A stretch of 64,000 nucleotides of DNA. Origin: Halocatena marina (GTDB lineage: Archaea; Halobacteriota; Halobacteria; Halobacteriales; Haloarculaceae). Of the stretch, positions 25,611-29,204 are shown piece after piece. Positions within the stretch are counted from its first letter, which is position 1. Every line of letters starts with the position of its first letter. Made by a program: the position numbers and the translations under genes. The stretch spans positions 434,001-498,000 of the forward strand of contig NZ_JALLPK010000001.1 in assembly GCF_023276375.1 (NCBI RefSeq), read 5' to 3'. Below the pieces are notes generated by a model. It did not search any database. It was not told where the DNA came from and was given only the letters and a program-made list of their open reading frames with translations.

Positions 25611-26126
25611 TCACGACTGGAACGTGGGCCCGGAGCCGAGCGGTTTCGAGAGCAACAGCCCGTCTCGTCGTTCCGTTTCCTGACCGTGACCGTGTTCGTA
25701 ATGCTCGGGTAGTCTGTCGATCACTTGGAAGCCGTGTGTTTCGTAGAATCCTCGTGCGGTTGTATCGTCAGCCCGTGCGGTTAGTAGGAGTTCGTCGGCG
25801 TCTGTGCGTTCAATGACTGATTTGAGGAGAGATGAGCCGTATCCTTCACGACGATGGTGTGGGTCAACGGCGAGTTCGGCAAGATAACACTGAGCGCCTT
25901 CTGTATCTGTCTCTCTACCTGTGGCTTGATCAACGGCGTCTGTTTCGGGCTGTCCCGTCACCGAGAGCGCGTAACCGATCGGTGTGTCCGTCGTTGTCGT
26001 TGCCACGAGACAGGTGGCTCCCCCGTGGACTGCGCTGTCGAGCAGCGCTGGCCATGGCGAAGTGAGTGATGCCCGCTGAATCGACTTGAGTATCGGCATA
26101 TCCGTGGACACAGCCTCGCGGATCAC
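25611..26126 (-). CDS. GNAT acetyltransferase (RimI-like)
   Basis: The 171-residue protein from GTG 26124-26126 (IREAVSTDMPILKSIQRASL) has the GNAT fold with the acetyl-CoA loop YLAELAVDPHHRREGYGSSLLK and the C-terminal RADDTTARGFYETHGFQVID. It resembles RimI-type N-alpha-acetyltransferases, but a short acidic insert (TGRETDTEGAQC) precedes the core. The start overlaps the stop of the DUF92 gene (GTGA), so coupling is likely and the longer upstream frame is not used. Confidence 0.85.
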   Translation of the reverse strand: MIREAVSTDMPILKSIQRASLTSPWPALLDSAVHGGATCLVATTTTDTPIGYALSVTGQPETDAVDQATGRETDTEGAQCYLAELAVDPHHRREGYGSSLLKSVIERTDADELLLTARADDTTARGFYETHGFQVIDRLPEHYEHGHGQETERRDGLLLSKPLGSGPTFQS

Positions 26127-27508
26127 AGTACCACGACGCTGGTTGCGAGCGACAGCGCGATGGCGACGATCGAGGCAACGAGCGTCGCGAGGAAGTTGAC
26201 AGCCATATTGTCGAGCACTACTCCTTCCATGGTCGCACCGAGAAGGCTGTCGGTGGTCATGCCTGCAATACCAGCAACGACAATAACGCTCACTCCGAGG
26301 GCCGAGAGGTCGAAGAATGCGACAGCGATCCCAGCAACGATTCCGGCCCCGACAACACCAGCGAGTTCTCCTTGCCACGTGACACCGCCGTCGGTGCCCG
26401 GTGGAACGGGTTCCAGCGTAGTGATGAGTCGTGGATTATCGTAGAGTCCACCGATCTCACTCGAAAGCGTATCGCTCATAGCGGCGGCGATTGCTCCGGT
26501 GAATGCGAACAGAAACAGCGTCTCCGGCACTCCGAGGGGATCGCTCGCTGCGCTACCGATAACCGCGACGAGCGCAACAGCCGAGTTTGCGAGGACGTTT
26601 CCGCTCCCTCGTGCGCCCTCGTTGTCTTCTGCAAGCCCACGACTGCGTTTCGTGTCGTAGCGGAACTTGGTTGCCAGACCCCCAACCATGAAAAATGAGA
26701 TCAGAACCGCGAACCACCCATAGCTACCGAGTACGATCGTCAACAGCGAAAGGAGAACCCCCGAGAGCATTCCGGTGACGGATGCGGTTTCGAGCGCGTA
26801 CGAGAGATACCCGAACACGATGGTGATGATGAGCGCACTAATCACCGTCATCGGATCGAGAGAAGGCAGAAGGTCTGCAAACAACCACAGTGCAAACGCA
26901 ACTGTAAGCATCACGAGCGGATCGTCACGATCGAACAACACCGAACGAAGGAGCGCGGCCATCAAGGCACCGCTCGACGCGAGAAAGACGGCAAGCGGGA
27001 CGTCAAACGACTCTCCCGTGACGACTGTCGTCAGCCCTTGTGCTAGCAAGCCAGCGATAAACGCGGCCGTAACGAAAACCGTCACCAGCATGAACGAGTC
27101 GTCTGTCCACTCGGTAGTGAGCTTCTCGGCGAGATTACCGTAGACGAGCAGCAGAACGCTTGCGATGAACACCGCGATCGGCATCCCGAACTGGAGGGTA
27201 ACCACCGTGAGACCAGCAGCAGCGAGACAGAAGCTTGCCAGCCCGTAGAGCCGACCCTCCTCGTAATCACCCGGGAACGCAAAGAGATCGAAGAGCGGAC
27301 CGTGGCTCGTGATCAACGAAAGCAGCGTCACCGCGAGAAACGGGACGCTGACGAGAACCGTCATGGCGTGTGAGTGGCTGAGAATCGACGCGATCGGCAC
27401 GGACTCTACTAGTGACGAGAACCGGTCCAGTTCCACGAATACCGGCACGAGGAGGGCGATTGACCCAACAAAAGCGAATCCTATTGCCCGCCGGACTGTG
27501 GAAGACAC
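26123..27508 (-). CDS. DUF92 multi-pass membrane protein
   Basis: This 461-residue protein has about 12 or more hydrophobic helices, and the conserved DUF92/TMEM19 core is at the C-terminal half: AAAMSDTLSSEIGGLYDNPRLITTLEPV, then PPGTDGGVTWQGELAGVVGA and the ending TTDSLLGATMEGVVLDN. The N-terminal half (about 200 residues) is a separate set of helices. DUF92 proteins are related to CTP-dependent phytol/dolichol-type kinases, and in haloarchaea they often lie close to the cis-prenyltransferase gene uppS, as here. A role in isoprenoid phosphate metabolism is therefore plausible but unproven. Confidence 0.88.
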   Translation of the reverse strand: MSSTVRRAIGFAFVGSIALLVPVFVELDRFSSLVESVPIASILSHSHAMTVLVSVPFLAVTLLSLITSHGPLFDLFAFPGDYEEGRLYGLASFCLAAAGLTVVTLQFGMPIAVFIASVLLLVYGNLAEKLTTEWTDDSFMLVTVFVTAAFIAGLLAQGLTTVVTGESFDVPLAVFLASSGALMAALLRSVLFDRDDPLVMLTVAFALWLFADLLPSLDPMTVISALIITIVFGYLSYALETASVTGMLSGVLLSLLTIVLGSYGWFAVLISFFMVGGLATKFRYDTKRSRGLAEDNEGARGSGNVLANSAVALVAVIGSAASDPLGVPETLFLFAFTGAIAAAMSDTLSSEIGGLYDNPRLITTLEPVPPGTDGGVTWQGELAGVVGAGIVAGIAVAFFDLSALGVSVIVVAGIAGMTTDSLLGATMEGVVLDNMAVNFLATLVASIVAIALSLATSVVVL

Positions 27509-27650: not shown

Positions 27651-28265
27651 GTGCATGTGGCACTTTACGACCGATATCTCGCTGCTCGCACGAGATGGAG
27701 TGATGCCGACCTCCCGAAAAACATCGCGCTCGTTATCACTGAACGTGATCTTCTTGAACCCGGGGCGTACGCAACACTCGAGAAGTTCTTTCGGTGGGCG
27801 TTTGAGAGCGACGCAGAGCGAGTCATGGTCTATGTGAGCGTTCTCGACGCTGCTGCTGTTCCGACACTTCAGAGCACGCTGTCGGAAATTGATGCCCCAC
27901 ACGATATTGCTATTCGTGTTCCAAATGACGACGAACGCGTCGATACATCCATACAGATCAGCATCGGACTGGGGGGGAAGTCCGAGTTCGCAAACGCTGT
28001 TCAACGGGTCGCCCGGAGCGTCGAACAGGGCACCGTGTCGTCCGATGAGATCGATGAGACGCATATCGAACAGGAACTCGTCTTTCCAACTGCTCCAGAC
28101 CTCGTCATCAAAACTGGTGCAGAACGCCTATCGGATTTCATGATCTGGCAATCGGTCTATTCAGAGCTCTACTTCACCGACATCAACTGGCGTGATTTCA
28201 GAAAACGCGACTACCTACGCGCAGTACGTGATTTTCAGGAACGACAGCGGCGATACGGAACGTGA
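27651..28265 (+). CDS. Degenerate cis-prenyltransferase family subunit (UppS paralogue)
   Basis: The 204-residue protein (GTG 27651; a GTG at 27657 is also possible) is a UppS-family homologue without the catalytic Asp motif. Where UppS has VIQDGNRR, this reads NIALVITERDLLE (residues 24-36). Its C-terminal half is well conserved: DLVIKTGAERLSDFMIWQS, then SELYFTDINWRDFRKRDYLR, and a terminal RRYGT carrying an RxG motif (R201-G203). The protein is about 100 residues shorter than the adjacent UppS. It lies convergent to and about 30 bases from the uppS gene. Eukaryotic NgBR/Nus1 has the same combination (no catalytic Asp, RxG retained) and activates its catalytic partner, so a heteromeric enzyme is inferred. 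Confidence 0.85.
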   Translation: MHVALYDRYLAARTRWSDADLPKNIALVITERDLLEPGAYATLEKFFRWAFESDAERVMVYVSVLDAAAVPTLQSTLSEIDAPHDIAIRVPNDDERVDTSIQISIGLGGKSEFANAVQRVARSVEQGTVSSDEIDETHIEQELVFPTAPDLVIKTGAERLSDFMIWQSVYSELYFTDINWRDFRKRDYLRAVRDFQERQRRYGT

Positions 28266-28295
28266 GTATTTGAGGTCGCTAATCACGTCTTGTCG

Positions 28296-29204
28296 TTAGT
28301 CACTCAGGGCTGGATCGTCCTCGACATCGATATCGAGATCGGTGTCGAGGTCGTCGAACTGTCTCCGGAGTCGCGCCCGAAGTCCATCGTCGGCACCCAG
28401 CACTCGAAGCAGTGTGATCGCGCGCTGGACACGGGTTTGGTGCCACGATTCCTGTCGTGATTCGTACGTTCGAATGGCTCGTAGGAGATCAACGCGTCGA
28501 AACTCTGGCCAGTAGGGCGTACAGAAAAACACGGCAGCTTCGTTGCCGTTAGCGTGCCACGGCAGGAAGTTGCTCGTTCGCTCGTCACCACCGGTTCGGA
28601 TGATGAGATCGACAGCGCGACCGGAGTGTGAGTACAGTCGGCGTTCGATCTCGTCGACGTCGATCTCGTCCGGTGAGAGCGTGCCGCGTTCGACGGCGCG
28701 GGCGGTATCACGGGCCGCATCGAGCAACTCTGCGCGCCCGCCGTACGCGAGCGCGATGTTTAGATTCAAGTTGTCGTATTCTGCTGTCTTCGATTCGGCG
28801 TAGTTGATCGCCTCGCGGACGCGTTCGGGAAGCCGCTCTGTCTGACCGATCGCGTGAATGTGTACCTCTTTGTCGTGGATCTCTGGCTCGTCAGCAAACG
28901 TTCTGAGTTTGGATTCGATGAGATCAAACAGCTCCTCGCGTTGCTCCGGCGGTCGGTTGAAGTTCTCGGTCGAGAAGGTATAGAGTGTGAGCTCCTCGAT
29001 GCCGAGGTCGGCGCACCATTCGAGCACTGACTCTGTTGTTTTCGCACCGTCACGGTAGCCGACCGCTGTTCCCTTGTCACGCGCGTCCGCGTAGCGACGG
29101 TTCCCATCCTGAATAACTGCTACGTGAGTCGGAACGCCGGAAAATTCTTGTTCGAGATTTCGCTCATAGAGGTCGAGCGCCCACCGACGGACCCGTTGTA
29201 GCAT
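28296..29204 (-). CDS. uppS: Cis-prenyltransferase (undecaprenyl/dolichyl diphosphate synthase family)
   Basis: The 302-residue protein condenses isopentenyl diphosphate onto an allylic primer to make the long polyprenyl carrier lipid for glycosylation. It has the catalytic HVAVIQDGNRRYA (Asp33), EELTLYTFSTENFNRP, and the pyrophosphate-binding DLIIRTGGDERTSNFL. Then comes PYWPEFRRVDLLRAIRTYESRQESWHQ. The RxG motif that follows in E. coli UppS is not present here (ESRQESWHQT instead). A C-terminal extension (RRQFDDLDTDLDIDVEDDPALSD) is acidic. The start at 29204 lies close to the divergent cspA promoter. Confidence 0.93.
   Translation of the reverse strand: MLQRVRRWALDLYERNLEQEFSGVPTHVAVIQDGNRRYADARDKGTAVGYRDGAKTTESVLEWCADLGIEELTLYTFSTENFNRPPEQREELFDLIESKLRTFADEPEIHDKEVHIHAIGQTERLPERVREAINYAESKTAEYDNLNLNIALAYGGRAELLDAARDTARAVERGTLSPDEIDVDEIERRLYSHSGRAVDLIIRTGGDERTSNFLPWHANGNEAAVFFCTPYWPEFRRVDLLRAIRTYESRQESWHQTRVQRAITLLRVLGADDGLRARLRRQFDDLDTDLDIDVEDDPALSD

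Follow-up and report, generated by a model that had tools for sequence, protein, structure and literature searches.

Organization of the locus

The window, i.e. the whole 64,000 bp stretch of DNA analysed here, belongs to a haloarchaeal genome of 5.3 Mb and contains two genes of the cis-prenyltransferase (cPT) family, which were the only two genes of the entire genome matching PF01255. P0002, annotated as uppS, is located on the reverse strand (28296..29204, 302 aa), and P0001 on the forward strand (27651..28265, 204 aa as an ORF). The ORF coordinates agreed with the initial annotation in placing the genes convergently, with 30 bases separating the stop codons, an orientation in which the two are not co-transcribed. 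The 204-residue ORF of P0001 beginning at 27651 was likewise recovered, but the gene probably starts slightly further in: its orthologues begin with MGLY, in register with codon 3 of the ORF, also a GTG, which puts the probable true start at 27657 (202 aa). Divergently from P0001, a DUF92 integral membrane protein is encoded on the reverse strand (26123..27508; PF01940, 1e-57). Searches of the full 64 kb (positions 1-64000) detected neither a tRNA nor an Rfam family at the gathering threshold.

Sequence and structure of the two proteins

P0002 scored 229 bits against TIGR00055 (cut-off 109.55) and matched PF01255 over profile positions 1-216 (1.5e-67), and is thus a full-length cPT. In the alignment to E. 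coli UppS, residues D26, G27, N28, R30, F70, S71, E73, N74, R77, R194, R200 and S202 (E. coli numbering) were all retained, D26 corresponding to Asp33 in the motif VIQDGNRRY (codon 29106..29108, reverse strand). Where E. coli UppS has RERRFG, P0002 reads RQESWHQT, with ESWH in the position of RRFG; the codons of S253-W254-H255 (28440..28448, reverse strand) accordingly mark the site of the R-x-G of homodimeric enzymes, and the motif itself is absent. Retention of Asp33 and loss of RxG, as proposed in the initial annotation, were thereby confirmed. The chain continues for 47 residues beyond H255 (residues 256-302; 28299..28439, reverse strand), versus just 0-8 residues after the RxG position in many of the catalytic proteins from Halobacteriota outside the haloarchaea.

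The AlphaFold2 single-chain model of P0002 was confident (pLDDT 88.7), with the C-terminal extension predicted as partly helical and confidence falling along it. The top PDB match was human DHDDS (6z1n_A), aligned over 296 columns including the extension with an rmsd of 8.7, which hints at a shifted tail, and matches to homodimeric UppS and single-gene cPTs reached TM-scores of up to 0.94-0.95 on the target. Tetramer-forming C-terminal helices are a feature of DHDDS and not general to heteromeric cPTs.

P0001 matched PF01255 only over profile positions 115-219 (1.2e-26), and its N-terminal half was about 50 residues shorter in the alignment. At the position of DGNRR it reads VITERDLL, with T-E-R for D-G-N; the codons of T30-E31, which replace Asp-Gly, lie at 27738..27743 on the forward strand. 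The stretches around R39 and R77 are missing and R194 is replaced by Lys (E. coli numbering), and the protein ends in RRYGT, in which R201-Y202-G203-T204 (28251..28262, forward strand) constitute RxG and one terminal residue, as aligned with the orthologues. A paralogue without the catalytic motif but with a terminal RxG had been noted in the initial annotation, and the alignment bears this out. The AlphaFold2 single-chain model of P0001 (pLDDT 85.2) had a cPT fold, and a Foldseek search with it returned cPTs in general, at TM-scores of 0.6-0.7 on the query, and not NgBR in particular.

Distribution of the motifs in Halobacteriota

Alignment of sequences from about 56 Halobacteriota genomes comprised 68 catalytic (C-type, as P0002) and 64 non-catalytic (N-type, as P0001) proteins. 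DGNRR was present in all 68 C-types, the Asp being invariant, and none of them had RxG at the aligned position. The N-types were the converse: DGNRR was absent from the aligned position in 64/64, and RxG was present in 63, the remaining one having KFG. After the final Gly, exactly one residue followed in every N-type, as in human NgBR. RxG was also sought as plain text close to the end of the C-types; none of the four matches was at the aligned position, the one in locus L043 being off by a single residue. The substrate-binding residues S71, E73, N74, R77, R194, R200 and S202 were conserved in 68/68 C-types and F70 in 66/68, while in the N-types and NgBR positions 39 and 77 were mostly deleted and R194 was mostly Lys. 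Conservation on this scale rules out both chance and mis-annotation as the origin of the motif split.

Second catalytic copies in three haloarchaea (L106, L108 and L127) likewise lacked RxG, and one further haloarchaeal genome (G098) carries a second catalytic copy. One haloarchaeon has a divergent third member (L094, G002:C1:478000-480500), with the motif LIPDGHRRY and the terminus RRNEGR.

Among 145 Halobacteria genomes, including the one studied here, PF01255 matches numbered two in 139, three in five, and one in a single draft. The paralogue, whose absence from close relatives the initial annotation had named as the contrary outcome, is thus kept, with at least two family members in nearly all of these genomes. 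In the phylum as a whole (197 Halobacteriota genomes) two matches were found in 179, three or four in ten, one in five fragmented drafts, and none in three. The latter three (G151, G160 and G169, all of family f17 and 86-91% complete) may be without any cPT. The partner gene was present in all genomes with the catalytic gene among the 55 listed. The complementary division first noted at this locus, with the catalytic Asp in one paralogue and RxG in the other, therefore holds across the phylum. A third cPT able to act as a homodimer was also considered for the genome studied here and was ruled out, as the PF01255 search found none.

Gene order and the DUF92 neighbour

Among genomes having both genes, the C-type and N-type were within 5 kb of each other in 40 of 56 from Halobacteria and in 18 of 54 from the rest of Halobacteriota, and all 58 close pairs were convergent; in the other 16 and 36 genomes, respectively, the genes were far apart. 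In most haloarchaeal loci whose flanks were long enough, a DUF92 gene was again upstream of the N-type gene and divergent from it, and the same neighbour was seen in a few other Halobacteriota (L035, L037 and L039). The plant phytyl-phosphate kinase VTE6 is a DUF92-family protein. The neighbour is probably isoprenoid-related, and the family membership of VTE6 would fit an isoprenoid-phosphate setting.

Cis-prenyltransferases of other archaea

At named archaeal loci outside Halobacteriota (Thermoplasmata, Thermococci, Hadesarchaea, Methanobacteriaceae, Bathyarchaeota and Asgard lineages) both motifs were in one chain in 54 of 55 cases, the exception being a KYG in Thermoplasmatota (L212), whereas the split was seen in the named Halobacteriota loci (Archaeoglobus, Methanolobus, Methanosaeta, Methanoperedens and others). 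A single PF01255 match was obtained in 37 of 41 outside genomes; the same search recovered a C-type and an N-type in 9/9 Halobacteriota genomes. Human NgBR scores 40.6 bits against PF01255, which is over the cut-off, so an NgBR-like partner should have shown up outside Halobacteriota.

In the Asgard phylum, 114 of 119 genomes had a PF01255 match, about 105 of them exactly one and usually full length, and no N-type was found in the 119 genomes except fragments at contig ends. Both motifs were present in 29 of the 30 best Asgard sequences; the other one (L242) has NFG, the Asn of which recalls yeast Nus1. The picture was similar in 81 genomes from the phylum of a Bathyarchaeota genome, and in Thermoproteota both motifs were in one chain in 10/10 sequences. 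One genome (G508, of the phylum of G343) had two members, of which the first ends at profile position 216 and the second covers positions 25-219, possibly an independent split or a mixed MAG.

Phylogeny

Under the mixture model the C-types formed one clade (support 99/91 without and 98/92 with the N-types), as did the N-types (100/100). Constraining N- and C-types together to one clade was not rejected (AU p 0.4), which is consistent with a single duplication at the base of the phylum having given rise to both, although this is unproven. The pairing tracks a single clade and therefore represents few independent events.

Human DHDDS was placed outside the C clade, by path closest to Asgard single-gene enzymes; forcing it into the C clade was not rejected (AU p 0.289), and the tree is thus neutral on whether the archaeal and eukaryotic catalytic subunits share an origin. 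A grouping of NgBR with the archaeal N-types on the tree was dropped, the NgBR branch length of 6.66 making its placement untrustworthy. The single-gene Asgard and TACK enzymes suggest, without proving, that the eukaryotic split was separate. We lean slightly towards the Halobacteriota split being an invention separate from eukaryotic DHDDS/NgBR, with both derived from a single-gene, two-motif archaeal enzyme and the non-catalytic subunits having converged. The convergent traits would then be, with the same narrow preference, the change of Asp-Gly to Thr-Glu and of Arg to Lys, the deletion of substrate-contacting segments, and a C-terminal RxG followed by one residue.

Comparison with known cis-prenyltransferases

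Homodimeric UppS (E. coli, S. aureus) and the single-gene archaeal cPTs have their core fold and catalytic residues in common with P0002, but they carry DGN.R and RxG in one chain, which P0002 does not. Closer is the human enzyme DHDDS/NgBR (6z1n, 6w2l), in which, as here, the catalytic subunit lacks RxG and has a C-terminal extension, and the C-terminus of NgBR contributes to the active site of DHDDS (PMC7573591). Human NgBR, whose sequence was verified against PDB, resembles P0001 in three respects: VITE stands in place of Asp-Gly, Lys takes the place of R194, and the chain ends in RxG with one terminal residue (R-L-G-K). It differs in length: NgBR has 293 aa with a long N-terminal region, whereas the model of the 204 aa P0001 ORF begins directly with the cPT-like domain. 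The eukaryotic parallel drawn in the initial annotation therefore holds for the human pair and not for yeast Rer2/Nus1, as Asn replaces the RxG Arg in Nus1 (PMC7573591). In plants, CPTs without RxG require the RxG-bearing LEW1 (PMC13247534).

An archaeal heteromer, mentioned in general terms in the initial annotation, is on record in PMC8131916, which cites Emi 2019 for MM_0618/MM_1083 of Methanosarcina mazei as a heteromeric cPT with C45-50 products, probably for a glycosyl carrier. The species belongs to the same phylum, and the Methanosarcina C- and N-type genes (L057 and L059), by exclusion the counterparts of MM_0618/MM_1083, group with P0002 and P0001 in the single C and N clades. A genome with a third copy matching MM_0014 over its full length (453.9 bits) had, besides it, one C-type and one N-type, which by exclusion are the orthologues of MM_0618/MM_1083; P0002 and P0001 are thus very probably orthologous to that pair. 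P0001 and P0002 are adjacent, convergent and alone, whereas the Methanosarcina genomes examined have the pair widely separated and may carry a third copy of MM_0014 type.

MM_0014 itself lacks RxG, as does P0002, and crystallises as a homodimer (PMC8131916). The MM_0014-type enzymes (7caq) are, however, a separate subfamily with the motif IPDGNRRW and a C-terminal LGG, which form homodimers and occur as a third copy in only some Halobacteriota genomes. Assignment of P0002 to this type was ruled out by its IQDGNRRY motif and 47-residue extension.

Proposed function and alternative explanations

Both proteins belong to PF01255; P0002 has the catalytic Asp and the substrate-binding residues without RxG, and P0001 is non-catalytic with a C-terminal RxG, as in the heteromeric type, and P0002 does not combine Asp and RxG in one polypeptide in the manner of homodimeric UppS. 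Judged from sequence, P0002 and P0001 can be regarded with considerable confidence as the catalytic and the structural or regulatory subunits of one heteromeric cPT. The motifs are complementary, the pairing is nearly universal in the phylum, no other copy is present in the genome, and both models have a cPT fold; from these observations we infer a physical complex, a mutual requirement of the two proteins, their product and their pathway. The heteromer would make the polyprenyl diphosphate precursor of a glycosyl-carrier lipid (a dolichyl-type phosphate for N-glycosylation). P0002 would provide Asp33, the residues that bind diphosphate and IPP, and the tunnel for chain elongation, and the shorter P0001 would have lost the catalytic features while keeping the dimer fold. 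The C-terminal R-x-G of P0001 would cross the interface and complete the diphosphate sites of P0002, as NgBR does for DHDDS.

A missing RxG alone is not proof of a heteromer, because MM_0014 works as a homodimer without it. P0002 might in the same way be a self-sufficient homodimeric synthase, with P0001 as a regulator or in a drifted role, and homodimerisation of MM_0014 and its relatives without RxG (PMC8131916), together with the placement of the two genes outside a common operon, speaks for this. We consider it improbable, as the MM_0014-type signature is absent from P0002, the Methanosarcina orthologue can by exclusion be assigned to a heteromer that has been proven, and nearly all genomes keep the RxG and one-residue tail of the partner, for which a drifting paralogue would have no need. 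Somewhat less probable still is that both proteins homodimerise and that P0002/P0002 and P0002/P0001 give different chain lengths, the partner tuning the product without being required: homodimers of the isolated subunits have been reported for yeast Nus1 and DHDDS (PMC7573591), and longer products tend to come from heteromeric cPTs (PMC7839719), but the genome studied here has no homodimer-competent copy with RxG. That P0001 is a degenerate, pseudogene-like copy with coincidental complementarity, as the loss of about 50 residues and of all catalytic residues might suggest, is hardly credible for an open reading frame with 58-66% identity across haloarchaeal orthologues, an invariant C-terminus and a place in almost every genome of the phylum.

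Significance

Heteromeric cPTs were already known from eukaryotes and one methanogen, and our literature search returned no Halobacteria-specific report of the pair. To the heteromeric reading of P0002 and P0001 the present analysis adds the distribution over the phylum, the grouping of each subunit in a well-supported clade of its own, and the single-gene enzymes of Asgard and TACK archaea; how the pair is distributed and how single-gene archaea differ may already be described in Emi et al. 2019.

The results indicate that the haloarchaea, and nearly the whole of Halobacteriota, produce their glycosyl-carrier lipid by a two-subunit enzyme, the human counterpart of which is mutated in glycosylation disorders. 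It should not be assumed that genes annotated as uppS in these archaea act alone. The small partners, which lack the long N-terminal region found in NgBR and occur in genetically tractable organisms, offer a handle on how RxG works in trans and on the reasons for which a homodimer comes to be divided into one catalytic and one dead subunit. With the single-gene state of the examined Asgard genomes, the origin of the eukaryotic split becomes testable.
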